This document shows positions 5,395 to 28,040 of a stretch of DNA of 36,168 bases, in pieces. The notes beneath the pieces are model-generated. The model was not told where the DNA came from. It saw only the letters and a list, made by a program, of their open reading frames with translations, and searched no databases. Source of the DNA: Microscillaceae bacterium (GTDB lineage Bacteria > Bacteroidota > Bacteroidia > Cytophagales > Microscillaceae). The position numbers and the translations under genes are program-made. Position 1 is the stretch's first letter; the number at the start of each line of letters is the position of its first letter. Where the stretch lies: the NCBI GenBank assembly GCA_025455045.1, contig JALONJ010000008.1, positions 1 to 36,168 of the forward strand. The letters run 5' to 3'.

Positions 5395-6489
5395 ATGAAA
5401 ATTAGACTTAAATCTTATGGAAGATTGAGCCAAACTTTAGGCTTTTTCTTATTATTAAATATTGCTTTTACCGCTTGTAAAAATGACAAAGACGAACCTG
5501 CGCCCCTGCCTACCGCCAAAGTATATATTGCCGGAGCTTCCCAAAATACCACTACGGAGTGGTTCACTACCTACTCTTGGGTAGATAGTACCCCTACCCA
5601 ACTTGGAACTACGGGTGGTTTTAGTCAGGCTACCGACAATTTTGTGGTCGGTAATGATGTGTATGTTTGCGGCTCAGTTTATGATGCCGAAACCGAAAAA
5701 TTCAAAGCGGTTTATTGGAAAAACGGAGTGATAACCGAACTCACTAATGGAATCAATATGGCTTTTGCCAATGCCATTTATGTATCGGGCAATGATGTGT
5801 ATGTAGCCGGAAATGAAAGAAGTGGCTTTGTCAGAATTGCCAAATACTGGAAAAACGGCGTTGCTGTGGCACTATCTGATGAAAACTCTGATGCTTTAGG
5901 CATTTTCGTAGTGGGCAATGATGTGTATGTCAGCGGTTACAATGTTGCCAATTCTACTGTCACGGTTACTGCCCGATATTGGAAAAACGGCCAGCCTATC
6001 ACCTTGGGTTCGAGTGAAAATTGCTACGCTACTTCTATTGTAGTCGTGGGCAATGATGTCTATACCGCTGGATACATTGGCACCAATGCCCAGCCAAGAG
6101 CCTATTATTGGAAAAATACCACGCGGTTTTCGCTGGGTACCGGCAACACCGCGGCGGTAGCTAATGCCATTTTTGTCGAAAATAATGATGTATATGTAGC
6201 CGGATATGAGCAGGCAAATGACAGCAATGGCTATCAAGTAGCTAAGTATTGGAAAAACGGCTCGGCAGTAAATCTTAGTAGCAACGGGCAAAGAGATGCC
6301 GAAGCCAAAGATATTGTGGTTTCGCTAGGCGAAGTTTTCGCGGTGGGCTATGTGGATAATAACCAAAACCAACCCATCATTACCCTTTGGAAAAATGGCG
6401 TTTCGGGCAATCTGGTAACCAATCTCGCCAGTAGCTTTAACCAAACGAATGGAGAAGCCACCAGTATTGTTGTGGTGCGCGAGCCGTAA
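5395..6489 (+). CDS. Lipoprotein with YWKNG beta-repeats, copy 1
   Basis: 364 aa with a type II signal peptide ending in FTAC (lipid-anchored Cys at residue 28), followed by the acidic linker KNDKDEP. The mature part consists of about seven tandem units of about 45 residues. Each carries a strand-turn signature of the form VVGNDVYVAGY, then variable residues, then (A)KYWKNG, then a variable strand. The repeat phrasing suggests an all-beta propeller-like fold on the cell surface or periplasmic face; the fold is inferred. No catalytic residues stand out. A paralogue lies 111 bp downstream, and the two differ mainly in repeat number and variable loops, consistent with tandem duplication. The biological role and ligand are unknown. 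Confidence 0.88.
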   Translation: MKIRLKSYGRLSQTLGFFLLLNIAFTACKNDKDEPAPLPTAKVYIAGASQNTTTEWFTTYSWVDSTPTQLGTTGGFSQATDNFVVGNDVYVCGSVYDAETEKFKAVYWKNGVITELTNGINMAFANAIYVSGNDVYVAGNERSGFVRIAKYWKNGVAVALSDENSDALGIFVVGNDVYVSGYNVANSTVTVTARYWKNGQPITLGSSENCYATSIVVVGNDVYTAGYIGTNAQPRAYYWKNTTRFSLGTGNTAAVANAIFVENNDVYVAGYEQANDSNGYQVAKYWKNGSAVNLSSNGQRDAEAKDIVVSLGEVFAVGYVDNNQNQPIITLWKNGVSGNLVTNLASSFNQTNGEATSIVVVREP

Positions 6490-16078: not shown

Positions 16079-18889
16079 TTAATTCAATACAAAACCTGCA
16101 ATTTCTTCGCCAGCCAATGCTTTTTTGGTCAATTGCTCAATTGCCCACTCGCGGTCAAGTTTGGTACCGGTTTGCGCCAACTCCAGCAAAGTCGATAACT
16201 CAACATTCAAGGTTTGTTCAATTCTTTCCTTGACATTTTCTTTGGCTTTGCGGCTTCGATTTTTCATTCTAAGTATCTCTTTATCAAAGCGTTGCACAAA
16301 AGGTTTTTTTACTTTGTGTTTGGCAATTTCTTCCGAGACAAATTGTTGGACAAATTTATCGGCGTGTTCGGACAAAAACTCCAAAATTTGTTCGTTGTCG
16401 GGGAAGTTTTCTTTGCGAAGGGCGGCATATTCCAAGCCAAAATCACGGACAGTGCGGTTGGGGCTGTCGCACATTGCCAAAACCGCCTCTAGCTCTCGGT
16501 TTGATTTGGCAGGCAAAGCATTGAAATAATGTTTGGCTTCGGCAACGGCATCGGGCAAATCGGATTCAAACAATTGCAAACCAAAAGGCAGGCTGATACC
16601 TGTACTACGGGCAAAGTTTAATCCCCAATGCCGCAATTTGGGCAATTTATGAATACAAACTTTGAATAATTCTCCCGAACCCATAGCAAAATATTGCGGA
16701 TTTGCTTCCAACCAACTCAATAAGAAATCTTCAAATTCGGGCTGGCTAATATCCAAAATACTCAAATCTTTTTGTTGTTGAAATAAAGCAAAAAACTTGG
16801 CATCTTGAATCAAACGCGCCCCCAATTGACTATCGGGCGAATTGATAACTAATTCCAAAATACTTTTCCAAAAACCGATTTCATTAGATTTTGCCAACAA
16901 TTGTTCATAGACCACTTCGCTTACCATTGCCCAGTTTTCGTCAGATACTGAGCCGGTCATCTCGAGCAGACTGTCTAATGATTGATTGCGAATGGCTTGC
17001 AAAATCATCGTTTTGGGGAATTTAGCCGCAAATTCTTTGACCAAGCTATAGTTATTGGCTAGGGCTTGCACAAAAGGTTCTTGGCGTTTTTCGCTTAGTT
17101 GGGCGAGCCATTGCATTACCTTATCGCCCATGGTGCCGCCTACGTAGCGCAAGGCGGTATTTAAAATATTGCTTGCTGAATTGACATCTATTCGGCAAGC
17201 TCCCATTATTTTCAAAATAGCTGAGGCAATCCATTCATCGGTGTTGGCGTTTCGAAAAGCATTTTCAACGTACCAGCTATAATCAAAAACCACTCTATTT
17301 TGAATGTTCGGGAGTGCTTCTTCGAGTATTTGGTTTTTGATTTCTAGCGAAAATTTGGAGATTTTGGACAAGTTATAAATTGGCTGACTAGATAAATTAG
17401 AAACAAACTGCCTTATCACAAAGTTTTTGACTCGTTCCAAAGCATTATCCATCAAAAATCCCAAAGCAGCATCGGAATAATAATTCAAATAATATTGATT
17501 TTTTTGATAATACCGAATAAACGCATCAGCCCCCGCCATAGAAGTAATGGCATTTAAAAACGGTTTTTCAAATTTGCGGCGATATTCGTAACGACTCAGT
17601 TTGTTCCACAAATAATACAATTGATACTCGTATTGCACTTTGGCACTCAACCGCCAGCCAAAATCGCATACTGCCATTGCTTGATGAAATACATAAGGCT
17701 CAATTTCATCTCGTTGCATATTGCCTTTAAACTTAGGAAATAAAATGCTTGCCAAGCGGTCATACATCGGCATTTTTAAAGCCACTTTGCCATTGTCCAA
17801 CGCAACCAGCCATTGCATAGCTTGGTCTTTGGTAGCTTTTTCAGCCCCCAAAAATGCCAATTCCTGCAAAGATTTGTAAGGCGAATGAAACAAAGCCTCT
17901 GCCATCGGCAATAAATTATCGGTGGGAATGGCTTTGCCAAAATTGGTTTGCAAATATTCTACACTTTTCAAAATCCGTTTGGAGCTATTGCCGGCGGTCA
18001 GTTCTTTAAAGGTGAGTTTTGCCAGATTTTCGGCAAATTCATCTTGCCAAACTTTGGCAGGTTTGGGGCGTTTGCTCTCAATTTCTTGAATTTTTTGGCG
18101 CAAACCGGCAGAGGCATATAGCCACATTCCGGCATACAAACCGGCTTTGGGGTTTTGGTAAGTAAATTTTTGATAGACACTGGTTACGGCCACACTTCTC
18201 AAAACGGTGGAAGTAGAATTGAAAAATTTTTGCAATACTTCTTCGCTTACTTCTGGTAGCGGTAAGTTGTTGCGTTTCAAGACCTTGACCGCAAACTCGT
18301 GAATTTGCCAAGGCATATCTTTGATCAAAATATCTTGCAAAAACTTGCTTTGCTCGTCCCAAACTGCCGGAAAGCGTTCTTCTTGGTGATGGTTTTGCAG
18401 TTTGGATTTGTCTAAAACATAAGCTCCGTGACCGTGACTTTTTTGATAAAATCTTCGAGAGTTACCATAAATAATATCAAGGCTAACCCATTGATTATCA
18501 AGGTCTAAACTCTGAGCGTTTTCATTAGCAACAATAGTTTTGCTTGCTAATTTGAAATACACTTCGGGGCTAATGTCGCCCAATTTGCGCAACAAGCGGC
18601 GGGCGCGGCGTTTCATATAGCGCAAAGTGGCGTGGGTAGGATATTCGCTGGTGATTTCCTGAATTTTGACTTGGTCAAGTCTATAGATTAAATTGCCCAA
18701 CAAATTGATTAAAACATCATTCAATTCGGGATATTCGGCTTGCATCAAGGCTACTTCACTTCGTTTGTAAAGTGATTTAAAAACCTTCCAATAATCTTTG
18801 GCAAACGGCGATTTTTTGACAAATTGCAGGGTGTCAAACAAATCTTTATCGTTGCGAGGCGGAAATTTATCAAGCAATTCTAAGCTCAT
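16079..18889 (-). CDS. Large helical-repeat orphan protein
   Basis: 936 aa, no signal peptide and no membrane segment, so probably cytoplasmic. Nearly the whole length is predicted by eye to be alpha-helical, with repeated helix pairs typical of HEAT/ARM-like solenoids (for example SVAVTSVYQKFTYQNPKAG, SLQELAFLGAEKATKDQAMQWL and the C-terminal NRTVRDFGLEYAALRKENF). The N-terminal part carries a very basic stretch, RYMKRRARRLLRKLG (about residues 89-103). The C-terminal part carries another (KHKVKKPFVQRF, RMKNRSRKAKENVKER). Either could contact nucleic acid. I recall similar N-terminal sequences in large WGR/MolR-like proteins but cannot confirm it and see no WGR motif. Function unknown; it stands alone with its own terminator. 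Confidence 0.85.
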   Translation of the reverse strand: MSLELLDKFPPRNDKDLFDTLQFVKKSPFAKDYWKVFKSLYKRSEVALMQAEYPELNDVLINLLGNLIYRLDQVKIQEITSEYPTHATLRYMKRRARRLLRKLGDISPEVYFKLASKTIVANENAQSLDLDNQWVSLDIIYGNSRRFYQKSHGHGAYVLDKSKLQNHHQEERFPAVWDEQSKFLQDILIKDMPWQIHEFAVKVLKRNNLPLPEVSEEVLQKFFNSTSTVLRSVAVTSVYQKFTYQNPKAGLYAGMWLYASAGLRQKIQEIESKRPKPAKVWQDEFAENLAKLTFKELTAGNSSKRILKSVEYLQTNFGKAIPTDNLLPMAEALFHSPYKSLQELAFLGAEKATKDQAMQWLVALDNGKVALKMPMYDRLASILFPKFKGNMQRDEIEPYVFHQAMAVCDFGWRLSAKVQYEYQLYYLWNKLSRYEYRRKFEKPFLNAITSMAGADAFIRYYQKNQYYLNYYSDAALGFLMDNALERVKNFVIRQFVSNLSSQPIYNLSKISKFSLEIKNQILEEALPNIQNRVVFDYSWYVENAFRNANTDEWIASAILKIMGACRIDVNSASNILNTALRYVGGTMGDKVMQWLAQLSEKRQEPFVQALANNYSLVKEFAAKFPKTMILQAIRNQSLDSLLEMTGSVSDENWAMVSEVVYEQLLAKSNEIGFWKSILELVINSPDSQLGARLIQDAKFFALFQQQKDLSILDISQPEFEDFLLSWLEANPQYFAMGSGELFKVCIHKLPKLRHWGLNFARSTGISLPFGLQLFESDLPDAVAEAKHYFNALPAKSNRELEAVLAMCDSPNRTVRDFGLEYAALRKENFPDNEQILEFLSEHADKFVQQFVSEEIAKHKVKKPFVQRFDKEILRMKNRSRKAKENVKERIEQTLNVELSTLLELAQTGTKLDREWAIEQLTKKALAGEEIAGFVLN

Positions 18890-19034
18890 TTTAATTTGTT
18901 GATTTTTTGATTTGGAGATTTTTTGAGTTGCTAATATTTCAATATGCCAATGTGCTGTTTTTCAAATACATAGCAAATTAAAATAATTGCAACTCTCAAC
19001 CATTTCACATTTAACCATTCAAAAAAATTTAATT

Positions 19035-19242
19035 ACTTCTAACCGATACTAAGGGGCATCACTGTAGGCGTAGCGGTTGCACCAGGTACATATCTGGATA
19101 ACTACCAAGTTGAGCTTGCTCATTCAGCGACTTTTGTTGTCCAGATATGTACCTGGTGCAACAAGCACGCTGAATGATATGCGCCTTTAGTGAAGTATGG
19201 GGAGCTTAAAAACGACTTTGGCGAAACACCAAAAAGATGCTA
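19035..19242 (+). ncRNA. Structured array unit 1
   Basis: P1 pairs 19048-19059 (ACTAAGGGGCAT) with 19179-19191 (ATGCGCCTTTAGT). Arm A at 19076-19102 (begins GTTGCACCAGGTACATATC) pairs with 19136-19162 with 23 perfect base pairs, then a U.G wobble and three more. Box B TCATTCAGC is at 19120-19128 and box B' GCTGAATGA at 19169-19177. The 3' hairpin TTTGG-CGAAACA-CCAAA is at 19217-19233. RNA status and + orientation are inferred from pairing. Confidence 0.6.
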
Positions 19243-19329
19243 ATTAAATTTTTATTCTACTGCTACAACTATTTGATTATCAATAAATTATAATAACAAA
19301 TCTGAATCTGAATTTTGAATCTTCTAATC

Positions 19330-19535
19330 ACTTCTTGCCAATAACAATGGCAATCACTGTAGGCGTAGCGGGTTAAGGTAGGTAGATACCTTAATTTTTA
19401 AAAGAGGCTTGCCCATTCAGCTTTTAGGAATAAAGGTATCTACCTACCTTAACCTTAGCACGCTGAATGACATTGACATTTGTTGAAGTATGATAGACTT
19501 GACAACAACTCCGGCGAAACACCGGAAAAATGCTA
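19330..19535 (+). ncRNA. Structured array unit 2
   Basis: P1 pairs 19343-19354 (AACAATGGCAAT) with 19472-19484 (ATTGACATTTGTT). Arm A 19371-19404 (begins GGTTAAGGTAGGTAGATACC) pairs with 19421-19454 over 34 positions: 22 perfect pairs at the base, then 31 Watson-Crick pairs overall, two U.G and one A/A mismatch. Box B is CCATTCAGC (19413-19421), box B' GCTGAATGA (19462-19470). The 3' hairpin TCCGG-CGAAACA-CCGGA is at 19510-19526. Confidence 0.6.
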
Positions 19536-19624
19536 ATTAGAAATTTTTGTTCGTTTAGATTCAAAATTCAGCTTCAAAATACAAATCTAATCTTTGCGGA
19601 TTGGAGTTTCAAAATATTTTTACT

Positions 19625-19832
19625 ACTTCTTACCGATAACAATGGCAATCACTGTAGGCGTAGCGGGGCGCAGTACTGTCGCTACCTTTATTCAATAAAC
19701 GGAGCGAGCTAATTCAGCCTTTTTGAGTAAAGGTAGCGACAGTACTGCGCCTTAGCACGCTGAATGACATTGACATTTGTTGGGGTATGGCGGGCTTGAC
19801 AACAACTCCGGCGAAGCACCGGAAAAATGCTA
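19625..19832 (+). ncRNA. Structured array unit 3
   Basis: P1 pairs 19638-19649 with 19769-19781, same sequence as unit 2. Arm A from 19667 (begins GGCGCAGTACTGTCGCTACC) pairs with the arm ending at 19751: 24 perfect pairs, a U.G, four more pairs and a U/U mismatch. Box B is reduced to ATTCAGC (19712-19718) with B' at 19759-19767. The 3' hairpin is TCCGG-CGAAGCA-CCGGA (19807-19823). Confidence 0.6.
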
Positions 19833-19874
19833 GTAAAAAATTTTGATTGAAAAAACGAAATGTAATGCTTTTTG

Positions 19875-19899
19875 TAAATAATTGATTATCAGTCGTTTA
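19875..19899. repeat. TGATWATCA palindrome copy
   Basis: TAA-ATAAT-TGATTATCA-GTCGT-TTA, in the spacer between array units 3 and 4. A weaker copy (outer CAA) lies between units 1 and 2 at about 19266-19290. Confidence 0.78.
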
Positions 19900-19934
19900 C
19901 CGATAATTTGTTTTTTTAATACTCGAAATCCACT

Positions 19935-20140
19935 ACTTCTTGCTGAAATCAACGCTAATCACTGTAGGCGTAGCGGGGGTACTACTGCTCCCCCAAAATT
20001 TTAGAAAGGGAGCTTGCTCATTCAGCCATTTTAAAACTTTGGGGGAGCAGTAGTACCCCTAAGCACGCTGAATGATATTGGCGTTTGATGAGGTGTGGGC
20101 GGCTTGAATACAACTTCGGCGAATCACCGAAAAAATGCTA
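19935..20140 (+). ncRNA. Structured array unit 4
   Basis: P1 pairs 19948-19959 (ATCAACGCTAAT) with 20077-20089 (ATTGGCGTTTGAT), a different sequence that keeps the pairing and the bulged U. Arm A from 19976 (begins GGGGTACTACTGCTCCCCC) pairs with the arm ending at 20059: 22 perfect pairs, then one A/C mismatch, five pairs and a G.U. Box B TCATTCAGC 20018-20026, B' 20067-20075. The 3' hairpin TTCGG-CGAATCA-CCGAA is at 20115-20131. Confidence 0.6.
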
Positions 20141-20275
20141 GTAAAATTTCTTAATACAAAGATAAAAATATTTGCAAAAAAAGTCAAGAATTTTATCAAA
20201 AATATTTTAAAATTAACTGGCGGTGATAGGTAATGATGTTTCGGGTTTTGGTTATTAGGTCATTGGCTTTGTCGA

Positions 20276-23893: not shown

Positions 23894-26800
23894 TTACTCA
23901 CTCTTTTTCATAAACGAAATATTGGGAACAAGACGCATCAGTGTTGGCAAACCCGTCGAGAAAGCCGTAGCCAAAGCCACCAATCGATTGAATACATCTT
24001 GTTGATTGACAAAGACAAACAAGGCAATAGAGGACAAAATCAAAAAGAAAGGCAGGCGCACAGTTTCCCAAAAGCCTACTACTTTGATGGTTTCTTCAAT
24101 CTGTAGCGCATCTTCGGGCTTCACAATAGAAAGAATAAAATTTTGGAAACTTTCATTAAAAATTCGCACTGTTCCCAAATCTCCGTCATATTCAATCAGA
24201 CCTTTGCTGTATAATCGGCGAATGATTTCGCGGTTGCGGGCATTTACCAAGCTATCTTCGGCTAGGTCGTACAAAATAAATTTTTCTTCTATGCTACACG
24301 AGTTCCACAATGATTGGTAATAGTTTTGGGCTAGGCTTTGGATTTTGAGCAATATATTTTCGCGGATTTCGCCTTTGGCATCCAGCTTTTGTTCAGCTTC
24401 CACAATAGTTTTGGGCAAAATACGGTTTTTCAAATCTTGCAAATATCCATTAAAATTACACTCATTATTAACTAAGTCTTTGACAGTCAATGGATTGTGA
24501 ATATGATTGAGGTTTTTGAGACGCACATACATTTTGGTAAAACCACACAAAACCAACTCCCAACGCTGGGCAATGAGTTCGCTTTCGGCACTTTTGTCGG
24601 GGGGCGACATTGCCTTAAAATTTTCAATCATTTGCTCAGGGTGCTGGGTAGTCGTAATGATTACCTTGTCGAAAGCCGGTTCATTCAAAAGATACTCAAG
24701 CAAAAAAAGTTTTTTCAAATTAACACTGGGGTCTTCTACCTGATAATCAAAATGATCAAGGATAAAATACGGGTGCGCCGTGGCAGTTTGGGCTTCGTAT
24801 TGCTTGATTTGTTGCACGAGGGTTTCTTTGTCGGCTTCGTAATCTAGAGCTGCCATCGGGATAAAAATGGGCTGGGTAGGAATCAATTGGCGAATTTTCT
24901 CGCTTTTGCCCACAATTGGTACGCCAATCAATACCAACCGAATGGGTTGGTTGGCTTGTAACACTTCGCCCAAATGCTCATTAAATTCATTTAACTCATC
25001 GGGCGCATCAAATCCGGCAAACATATCTAAACTGAATATTTTGATGGCAATGTAGCGCAACAAAAAAAACAAAATAGGCAACAATACCAACATCAAACCA
25101 ATGGGAATAAAAAACTTCAAACTCGCAAAGCGATTCAAAATATATACCGGCACCAAGGATTCTATAATCAACAAATCATTGTTTTGGCGCGTAGTTTCGT
25201 CAAATAAAGGGCGAACCGCCGCTATAAACTGATAATACGCAGCGTTTTTGGGTAAATCGTACAATGCCAAACGGGGCGAGTTGGAGGTATCATACAGATA
25301 AATCCCCAATTGATTGTGGGCTTGGAGGAGGTTTGATTTGGCGGCAATTTTTATATCTCGATAATCGGTGGTTTGAAAATAATGCGCTCTTTGTTTGAGG
25401 TCTTGATGGAGTTCAAATTTTTGTTGTTTTGCCAATAAGCCCGTTTCTTGTTGATAATTGACCTGATAAATAAAATAAATGGGAATCAGACTGGTAGTCA
25501 AAATCAAACTCAATAAAAAACTCACATAATAGGTGATATAAGCCTCTTTTTGTTGTTTGCGCGATACTGCCCACTCTGCCGGTAATAAAAACACAATAAT
25601 CAGCCCCAATAACAAACCCCACGAATACCACACTTGCCAAAAAATCATCAAAAAAATCAAAAACAAACCCGCCAACAGCAATAAAATCCGCAAAAACCAA
25701 ATTCCGACAAATACATTGAAGCGCGTGCGCCCACGATACATATATGTAAACAGTAATTGCAAGACCGGCAAAGTTATCGACAAACCCATTGAATAAGCGT
25801 AGGGGGCTTGGGTAATAAGCAAAGCCAGCAAAACTGTGGTGATGGTCAGCCCCAAAACCGAATTAAGAACAAAATTTGCCAAATATGCTTGAGCTTTGTC
25901 GTGGCGAGGCTTGAGCCAATCAAAGGTGAAAGTTTTGATTTTGAGTTTGCTGGGGGTTTGGTCAGCCAGCCACACCACCGTCAAAAACAAAATAATCAAT
26001 GAATAGGCAATCAAATAAGCTACTAAACACAAAGTAGTGATAATCGCACTGCTGCCGTCATAACTAGAACGCTCGAGATAAGTAACCAAAAACAAAGGCA
26101 CTTTGCCGTATTTTTTATTGACCAAAGGGCGAATGTAAGCACTGCATATTTTGCCTCGATAATCTAAATCCAAATGGGCGATAGATTCGGCATACAAGGC
26201 AGCAAACAATTGATTGTCGCGGTCGGTTTCTTCCAATAAATTTTCGCGCAGGCTTCGGTCTTTGTCGGAGTGAAACCACACTTTGCCGGTTTTGTCCACT
26301 ACGGCAAAACCAAAACCAAAAGGCATAATCGGATTCATCAAAGAATACAAATTGCTCGACAAAGCTACTACTTCAATTTTGGTGGGTTGGGGCGGCGTTT
26401 TGGTTTTGTCTTTGATGTTGCGCGGAATAAAAATTGGGCTTTGGATTGGTTTGGCAATTACGGCATCTATTTCGCCGGTATTGTAAGAGGCAATGGCTTC
26501 CAGAGAAAAATCTGCCGAGTCCTTTGCTGTCCATTTGATTCGCCAAGGTTCTTTTTGAATGATTTTCTGAAAGTAATTGCGCCCCCGCACCGAGACTGCA
26601 TAGCCGTTGTTTTTCTCCACTGTCCATTTAATTTGTTGTTGCCCGTTTTTGTCTGCCCAATTGATATATTTGAAATAAGGATAAACTTTAGGATAGAGAT
26701 TGAGAGAGACCGGCCGCCCGTTTTGCTCGTAGCGGGCGGTTTCGTCGAGCAAATTAACCAAGCTGTAATCATTCAAGGTTTCTCGATTGACGGTGGTTTG

Positions 26801-27865
26801 CACATTCTGTTCATATTGTTTCAATTGGGTCAAAATATCGGTCAGTTCTTTGGTAAAATTTTCACTGATTTGATTGGACAAATTGCCCAAGTGATTTTCG
26901 CGCTCGCGGCGGTCAAACACATAATAATCGGCGGCATTGAGAATAAACAAAGTCAAGATTGCCCCGCCCAAAGTAAGCGAAACTATTACCCACACAATAT
27001 CGGCATTGGAAATGCGCTCCAAAGAACTTAACAAAATCACCTTGAGCAAGGGGGTGAGCAAAAACAAAAACACAAAGCCAATGCTAATCAATAAAATAGT
27101 TGCCGATGAGCCACCCGATTTTAATAAGTTGAATTTTTCGGTTGGAATTAAGCCATAAATAATGCCCGTATTGTCAATAAAAGGAAAGGAATGGGTAAAT
27201 ACTCGGTAGGCTACGCCGGCAATCTCAATACTCCGCACTTGATTACTGGGGAGAGCCAAAATTCGTTTGGTCAAAGAATCTCTATCGGGCTGGTTATCAT
27301 TCAAAATAAGGTTGGAATACACAATTTCGGCTTTGCCCGAAGCAAACCGATTGAATAAAATGAAATCCGAAAACAAATCTTCGCGCAGTATTTTGTGCAA
27401 GGCTTTGGGTACATCTACCTGATAGCTGATTTGATAAAGGCTGTCGAGTGCCAACTGAAGGGTATCGTGGTAAATGATTTTTTGGTTTACTTTATCAAAA
27501 TCAATACTGAGTCTTTTTTCTTTGGAGTCTTTGATAAATTGGGGGCTGGCAATAAACTCTACTTCATCATTAAAAGTTTGACTTCGGAGTTTAAAGCCCA
27601 GCGTATCAGCTTTGCGTTTTTGTTGGGCTAAGTGGTTGTCTTCCAGCCATTTACGGGCTATGTTTTTGGCACTGCTGTTGTTTTCGCGGTTGCGTTTGAT
27701 GATATTTTCCGAAATCCGATTCAGCACTCGAAATCCTCGCTCGCGCAAGCGGTCTTCTTTCATCGGAATATAGACAAAAAAGTAATAGCTAAACAACAAA
27801 CCCAAAAGCAAAAGGGTAATAAAAGTAAAATAATATTGTTGACGACGTGGGGCTTTGGTTTTCAT
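23894..27865 (-). CDS. Giant membrane protein: Cache-like sensor plus P-loop NTPase-like region
   Basis: 1323 aa from the ATG at 27865 (a TTG one codon earlier would add one residue). Layout by eye, in order: an N-terminal membrane segment (about 12-34), an extracytoplasmic region, two membrane segments (about 255-312), and a second extracytoplasmic region (about 315-605) with Cache/PAS-like features (AIASYNTGEIDAVIAKPI, GFGFAVVDKTGKVWFHSD). A block of about seven hydrophobic segments follows (610-800), then a third extracytoplasmic segment (800-910), another membrane segment (918-940), and a cytoplasmic part with a Walker-A-like GVPIVGKS (about 982-989) and a Walker-B-like YFILDHFD. A winged-helix-like end (LVNARNREIIRRLYSKGLI) and a final membrane hairpin close it. 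This suggests a membrane receptor coupled to an AAA/STAND-type module. No kinase or cyclase motif is seen and the ligand is unknown. Confidence 0.88.
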   Translation of the reverse strand: MKTKAPRRQQYYFTFITLLLLGLLFSYYFFVYIPMKEDRLRERGFRVLNRISENIIKRNRENNSSAKNIARKWLEDNHLAQQKRKADTLGFKLRSQTFNDEVEFIASPQFIKDSKEKRLSIDFDKVNQKIIYHDTLQLALDSLYQISYQVDVPKALHKILREDLFSDFILFNRFASGKAEIVYSNLILNDNQPDRDSLTKRILALPSNQVRSIEIAGVAYRVFTHSFPFIDNTGIIYGLIPTEKFNLLKSGGSSATILLISIGFVFLFLLTPLLKVILLSSLERISNADIVWVIVSLTLGGAILTLFILNAADYYVFDRRERENHLGNLSNQISENFTKELTDILTQLKQYEQNVQTTVNRETLNDYSLVNLLDETARYEQNGRPVSLNLYPKVYPYFKYINWADKNGQQQIKWTVEKNNGYAVSVRGRNYFQKIIQKEPWRIKWTAKDSADFSLEAIASYNTGEIDAVIAKPIQSPIFIPRNIKDKTKTPPQPTKIEVVALSSNLYSLMNPIMPFGFGFAVVDKTGKVWFHSDKDRSLRENLLEETDRDNQLFAALYAESIAHLDLDYRGKICSAYIRPLVNKKYGKVPLFLVTYLERSSYDGSSAIITTLCLVAYLIAYSLIILFLTVVWLADQTPSKLKIKTFTFDWLKPRHDKAQAYLANFVLNSVLGLTITTVLLALLITQAPYAYSMGLSITLPVLQLLFTYMYRGRTRFNVFVGIWFLRILLLLAGLFLIFLMIFWQVWYSWGLLLGLIIVFLLPAEWAVSRKQQKEAYITYYVSFLLSLILTTSLIPIYFIYQVNYQQETGLLAKQQKFELHQDLKQRAHYFQTTDYRDIKIAAKSNLLQAHNQLGIYLYDTSNSPRLALYDLPKNAAYYQFIAAVRPLFDETTRQNNDLLIIESLVPVYILNRFASLKFFIPIGLMLVLLPILFFLLRYIAIKIFSLDMFAGFDAPDELNEFNEHLGEVLQANQPIRLVLIGVPIVGKSEKIRQLIPTQPIFIPMAALDYEADKETLVQQIKQYEAQTATAHPYFILDHFDYQVEDPSVNLKKLFLLEYLLNEPAFDKVIITTTQHPEQMIENFKAMSPPDKSAESELIAQRWELVLCGFTKMYVRLKNLNHIHNPLTVKDLVNNECNFNGYLQDLKNRILPKTIVEAEQKLDAKGEIRENILLKIQSLAQNYYQSLWNSCSIEEKFILYDLAEDSLVNARNREIIRRLYSKGLIEYDGDLGTVRIFNESFQNFILSIVKPEDALQIEETIKVVGFWETVRLPFFLILSSIALFVFVNQQDVFNRLVALATAFSTGLPTLMRLVPNISFMKKSE

Positions 27866-28040
27866 CAATTTGAATTATTAGGTAAACTAATGACAACGGA
27901 TTGACCAATCAAATTTAAACCAAAAAAAATGAATTTTTAGTAGTTTGTCGAATATTACTCGTCTATGTTGCGCTTGAGTATGGAGGTTGAAGCTCAAAAG
28001 ACAATTTTTTTGAAATTTGCAGAAAAAATCTATTTTTACA

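Follow-up and report, generated by a model that had tools for sequence, protein, structure and literature searches.

The 36,168-nucleotide stretch of DNA analysed here (Microscillaceae bacterium, contig JALONJ010000008.1, positions 1 to 36,168; hereafter the window) carries a tandem array of four structured units and, downstream of it on the same minus strand, a gene for a protein of 936 amino acids (aa). Judged from sequence, the array is almost certainly a series of non-coding RNAs (ncRNAs) of a type XIII retron. In retrons an RNA serves as the template from which a reverse transcriptase (RT) produces small DNA hairpins, and the role of these systems is anti-phage defence. The start-to-start distances of the units are 295, 295 and 310 nucleotides (nt), and the home assembly (6.8 Mb, 697 contigs) holds no copies beyond these four. 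The number and spacing of the units, and the letters quoted for their core, for an outer helix P1 and for a 3' hairpin, had been given in a first-pass annotation and match the window exactly. A scan of the window returned 0 Rfam families at the gathering score, and the sub-threshold matches were generic hairpins. The features of the locus are the following:

19023..19253, minus strand: predicted ncRNA unit 1 (a1 19241-19253; predicted branch G 19240; msr hairpin; msd; a2 19023-19035)
19317..19548, minus strand: predicted ncRNA unit 2 (a1 19534-19548; predicted branch G 19533; msr hairpin; msd; a2 19317-19330)
19610..19845, minus strand: predicted ncRNA unit 3 (a1 19831-19845; predicted branch G 19830; msr hairpin; msd; a2 19610-19625)
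19925..20152, minus strand: predicted ncRNA unit 4 (a1 20139-20152; msr hairpin ~20114-20130; msd; a2 19925-19935)
20140-20137, minus strand: TAGC priming motif of unit 4 (predicted branch G 20138)
19076..19162, minus strand: hypervariable msd tip of unit 1 (perfect 27-bp arms 19076-19102 / 19136-19162)
19371..19454, minus strand: hypervariable msd tip of unit 2
19667..19751, minus strand: hypervariable msd tip of unit 3
19976..20059, minus strand: hypervariable msd tip of unit 4
20164-20157, minus strand: promoter-like -7 element TATCTTTG of the Bacteroidota type, 5' of unit 4; none for units 1-3
16079..18889, minus strand: 936-aa relative of HEAT-ARM_XIII/WGR_XIII, downstream of the array; putative accessory or effector subunit

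Read on the minus strand, the order within a unit is a1, TAGC, msr hairpin, long msd hairpin, AGAAG and a2. TAGC is the usual priming motif of retrons (PMC6868368) and lies at the inner end of the a1/a2 stem in 24 of 25 units, the exception being ES-bin-17 with CGGC. The stem of unit 1 (AAAAATTTAATTA / TAATTAAATTTTT) is a perfect duplex of 13 bp, and the a1/a2 sequence differs from unit to unit with the pairing preserved in each. The two helices recognised earlier, P1 and the 3' hairpin, are real and are recast here as the lower msd stem and the msr hairpin, respectively; the a1/a2 stem had been overlooked, and it shows double changes at 10 of the 10 pairs tested. Covariation was evaluated over four helices in an alignment (A4) of 21 distinct units drawn from roughly a dozen genomes. 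There 89.6% of cells pair (33-55% with slid partners), 24 pairs, including those of a1/a2, carry changes in both partners, and covariation scores 0.517, compared with 0.183 in shuffled sets (0/500) and at most 0.135 with slid partners. The structure was picked after inspecting these same sequences, which biases the slid control towards the chosen structure; the magnitude of the gap and the occurrence of double changes are unaffected. The claim that these are selected, covarying elements is thus upheld by compensation across the 21 units. The units fold much more stably than shuffled sequences, with z scores of -8.9 (unit 1) and -6.4 (unit 4). By these features the units are predicted to be complete retron ncRNAs, each an msr-msd with its own a1/a2 stem, TAGC and msr hairpin. 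Besides these helices, most units have an msd apical loop GCTGA(AT) that is complementary to an (AT)TCAGC located at the base of the msd (for example CATTCAGCG and apical GCTGAATG on the minus strand of the window), and this complementarity, conserved in sequence, may represent a pseudoknot or a contact between multimers of the DNA product.

The strand was deduced from wobble pairs and from the position of a promoter motif. In the a1/a2 stem and the msr hairpin, wobbles are G.U on the minus strand in 19 instances and A.C in 4; in the lower msd stem the asymmetry is reversed (1 vs 6, i.e., G.T on the plus strand), with small counts. The opposite senses fit msr and a1/a2 acting as RNA and msd acting as complementary DNA with the plus sequence. 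TAnnTTTG, the Bacteroidota -7 motif, was sought within 45 nt upstream of TAGC. On the ncRNA strand 11 of the 17 units that stand first or alone have it and none of the 10 internal units does; on the other strand it occurs in 2 of 27. This restriction to first or single units suggests one transcript for an entire array, starting in the window upstream of unit 4. For the one-unit carrier Aureivirga sp. CE67, a transcript start is predicted on the ncRNA strand about 7 nt past TATATTTG. At two single-unit loci (L134, L123) a2 is followed by a terminator-like hairpin and a T run, which fits a free-standing ncRNA gene on this strand.

The proteins expected of a type XIII retron were found in the carriers of the element. 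Each array-bearing genome examined encodes an RT of ~460 aa; RT_XIII is the best match of the five RTs scanned (E 1e-145 to 1e-158), and the RT of the home genome matches it (PDLC02956) with E 1e-154, far above the remaining RT types. The motifs YADD, NAxxH (region X) and VTG (region Y), which define retron RTs (PMC6868368), occur in 12 of 12 RTs including that of the home genome, and the top match of the RT in the PDB is the retron RT of Ec86 (E 2e-43). SWIM_XIII is also encoded at home (E 2e-171). These two proteins, together with the retron anatomy of the ncRNA, overturn the view that the element matches no known class. Its neighbourhood had likewise been said to explain nothing; however, the supposed 936-aa orphan matches the PADLOC profiles WGR_XIII (E 1.5e-23, profile positions 253-488) and HEAT-ARM_XIII (E 2.3e-19), and an all-against-all comparison of flanking open reading frames (ORFs) placed its homologues next to the element at six other loci. 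Against Pfam and NCBIfam this protein gave nothing above the cut-offs, a profile search of the PDB gave no match, no relatives were found among viral contigs, and no WGR domain was matched at E up to 1. The HEAT relative of ES-bin-17 carries extra sequence at its N-terminus, which by eye resembles WGR. Near the array of another genome (L057, G008, contig C178, 1311-3347) lies a second, unrelated RT-like protein of 600-680 aa, with a relative in G006 (L093, C51).

The arrangement of these genes varies. In Aureivirga and in the complete genome G018 they form a single locus on one strand in the order ncRNA-HEAT-SWIM-RT, the genes adjoining the RT being SWIM_XIII. In the home genome they are scattered, with the array and the HEAT gene on contig C108, the RT on C75 and SWIM_XIII on C439. 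The same separation occurs in G006, where the array and HEAT gene lie inside a 101-kb contig and SWIM and RT inside a 116-kb one, which points to dispersal of the system in this family and not to assembly breaks. Between the RT and SWIM genes of G018 (L109, 5308-5459) there is a perfect 34-nt inverted repeat with an 84-nt loop, rich in CTACCCC, as are some tips.

Across the order, BLAST detected relatives of the element in several members of its own family and in a single genome from another one, often as arrays. Further members came from scanning ~85,000 species genomes with a degenerate pattern; they lie in Cytophagales metagenome-assembled genomes (MAGs), in the isolate Aureivirga sp. CE67 and in a MAG labelled Chlorobiales; the remaining matches of that scan were due to chance and lay within genes. 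Viral contigs searched by the conserved-block pattern likewise gave chance matches in coding DNA and were set aside. A covariance model built on the 5' half was run against 390 genomes of the order and found the ncRNA in 14. Among the ncRNA-bearing genomes tested, SWIM_XIII is present in 13/13, the RT in 12/12 and the HEAT protein in 12/13; two members of the family (G004, G005) have none of the four components, and in one genome (G001) RT_XIII is present and the ncRNA was not matched, perhaps because it is divergent. There are four copies in two genomes (G000, G008), three in three (G003, G006, G007), two on separate contigs in G009 and G012, and one elsewhere. In four more distant genomes of the class (G608, G665, G669, G692) RT_XIII has a long hairpin upstream, in which model R1 fails to find the frame. 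These loci (L103-L106) share the order hairpin, RT, large protein and SWIM-sized protein, with a single hairpin whose arms have GAGAAA/GTGAAA bases in common and differing tips, again with GGTACTAT-like sequence.

The most variable part of the units is the tip of the msd hairpin. In the window the inner 20-29 bp are unrelated between units and perfectly self-complementary in each; across units the tips form perfect duplexes of ~17-29 bp within an inner stretch of 95-97 nt (105-106 in some). Frames belonging to one array share 73-100% identity (73-99% outside G003), and their tips resemble one another no more, or slightly more, than shuffled tips do. The clearest case is G003, in which two units have frames identical over 84 + 50 nt (134 nt) and tips of 23 and 27 bp that differ (GCGTACATACTGCTATAATGCGT vs GCGTATAGTACTTGACGGTAATTAAAT), in an array whose frames are 98-100% identical. 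Identical frames with unlike tips imply that the tips were swapped as blocks, or that the frames and not the tips were homogenised. In G006 (L056, C34, 7700-8200) one unit is broken in comparison with the sister array of G007, and its neighbour is a chimera, with a tip arm partly derived from the tip of the other unit and pairing partly disrupted, which indicates recombination between units. In G012 (L060, C150, ~6148-6300) a1, msr and the lower msd are intact and the tip is absent (CAGCGTGCTAAGCAAGCTTACAG), a natural tip deletion.

We interpret the locus, with a probability of about 0.7, as a type XIII retron array that would yield DNAs with a shared shaft and with tips serving as different baits. 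The unlikely alternative that has to be weighed most seriously keeps the retron array and regards the tips as neutral filler: a shaft would need no more than perfect pairing over the right length, the copies would serve dosage, and template switching (quasi-palindrome correction) would preserve the complementarity of the arms while their sequence drifts. It predicts the constant length and complete pairing of tips that vary freely in sequence, and the tipless copy of G012 agrees with it. The content of the tips, however, is non-random. GTAC occurs in 13 of 27 tips (2.1 expected; 0/4000 shuffles), and an RGGTACTAT-like motif in these 27 tips has a log-likelihood ratio of 68, compared with at most 32 in 12 shuffled sets, the shuffles being mononucleotide; among 22 non-redundant tips, GGTA/TACC is present in 16 (3.3 expected) and TACTA/TAGTA in 10 (1.2 expected). 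Since its position and partly its orientation vary, the motif is not merely a part of the fixed frame. Drift also fails to account for the identical frames with unrelated tips of G003, unless conversion homogenises the frames. Internal palindromes in the tips are significant overall (Fisher P 7e-4) and are carried by five of the 22; as the signal rests on five tips, the idea of palindromic operators was kept out of the main argument.

A degenerate family, made up of msr-msd copies that were duplicated or retrotransposed, has been suggested for Retron-Nex1 of Nannocystis and is a very unlikely reading of the units here. Tandem units distant from the RT would fit this origin, as would the broken and tipless copies in sister genomes, but all four units of the window have kept compensated a1/a2, msr and msd helices as well as TAGC, and RT, SWIM and HEAT are retained by all or nearly all carriers.

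Capture of the tips from invaders as a spacer-like memory is highly improbable. The cassette-like replacement in G003 would suit such an origin, and when exact 20-22-mers of four tips were searched in viral contigs, one (a 20-mer of unit 2) was found in eight related contigs at the same site of one gene. These contigs represent one phage clade and the match ends at 20 nt without extension, so it is treated as chance; the three remaining tips had no exact match in viral contigs, no tip matched phages at E up to 10, and the tips had no matches when the entire array was compared with phages and plasmids. The shared motif points instead to selection on content. A CRISPR-like memory array was rejected as a candidate, the variable parts having no invader matches beyond that one 20-mer. 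Finally, the plus-strand structured RNA of a new class put forward in the first-pass annotation can hardly be right: P1 would pair in such an RNA as well, but the G.U/A.C asymmetry and the position of the -7 motif place the ncRNA on the minus strand, and TAGC with compensated a1/a2 stems and the linkage to retron genes also speak against it.

Elsewhere in the window, a 1324-aa ORF (23894-27868, minus strand) has no match in Pfam or NCBIfam.

For the type XIII array with tips as baits, the favourable evidence consists of near-identical frames with different tips, the constant inner length, the perfect pairing of the tips and the recurrent motif. Three points weigh against it. With the home RT and SWIM_XIII on other contigs, the array must work in trans; the tipless copy of G012 and the broken one of G006 imply that some copies may be dispensable; and the shared motif might point to one partner, from the host or the retron, and not to different triggers. 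On balance, we regard it as an even question whether the tips act as baits with different triggers. The stronger proposal of a bait repertoire, in which tips would be replaced wholesale, both arms together and with constant frames, allowing a single RT and a single effector to sense many phage triggers, is put forward tentatively and is itself doubtful.

By analogy with known retrons, in which the effector is held inactive in a complex of RT and multicopy single-stranded DNA (msDNA) until a phage protein disturbs the msDNA, we infer that msDNA is made, that SWIM/HEAT acts as the effector and that the tips act as baits, as follows. One transcript would begin upstream of unit 4, and each a1/a2 stem would present its own branch G. 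The RT supplied from another locus would copy every msd into an msDNA with the shared shaft and a unit-specific duplex tip, and the RT-msDNA complexes would keep the SWIM/HEAT effector inactive. The effector would be released once a phage protein bound to one of the tips, methylated it, cut it or unwound it, and the array would thus offer several triggers for one RT and one effector. The tips would turn over fast under selection while the frames stay uniform. Related forms of disturbance have been described: Asa1 and Squ1, with GATC in the ncRNA/msDNA, are inferred to be triggered by methylation (PMC12548924), in Eco8 the msDNA is disturbed by SSB binding (PMC13158370) and in Kva2 the trigger binds at the msd stem loop (PMC13405049).

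If the proposed reading is true, natural retron RNA arrays with cassette-like, perfectly paired tips would show a route to diversified retron sensing, trigger specificity could be tested directly through tip swaps in one frame, and the arrays would be natural multiplex templates for retron DNA production. A true bait repertoire would amount to a diversifiable innate receptor built from reverse-transcribed DNA. The joint replacement of both hairpin arms with unchanged flanks is a testable question in its own right.

To our knowledge, each retron characterised so far has been described with a single msDNA. Open-access full text contained no report of natural hypervariable retron arrays, a scope that leaves out the main type XIII papers and in which absence is unproven. 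Tandem msr-msd copies as such are not new, given the precedent of Retron-Nex1 (Ne160) of Nannocystis exedens, with duplicated msr/msd copies and no RT close by (Lampson and Rice, 1997, via PMC6868368). As far as that account goes, the two systems share several msr-msd copies located away from the RT and differ in the replacement of tips between identical frames, which the description in PMC6868368 does not mention. The extended N-terminus of the RT and the long msd hairpins recall Retron-Mxa1 (Mx162) and Sau1 (Sa163), which are described with CAGC (PMC6868368), in contrast to the TAGC found here. TAGC or a related motif, a1/a2, msr and msd are shared with Eco1, Eco8, Asa1, Squ1 and Kva2, whose msDNA senses phage proteins or methylation and sets a precedent for the proposed role; these retrons are described with one msDNA each, whereas up to four per RT are predicted here. 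The closest resemblance is to the type XIII retrons of PADLOC (RT_XIII, SWIM_XIII, WGR_XIII, HEAT-ARM_XIII), with relatives of these proteins, a retron-type ncRNA and, in G018 and Aureivirga, a contiguous single locus. The arrays described here depart from them in that the HEAT protein of the window has no WGR domain match, the RT and SWIM genes lie at other loci, and the ncRNA occurs as three to four tandem copies with different tips.
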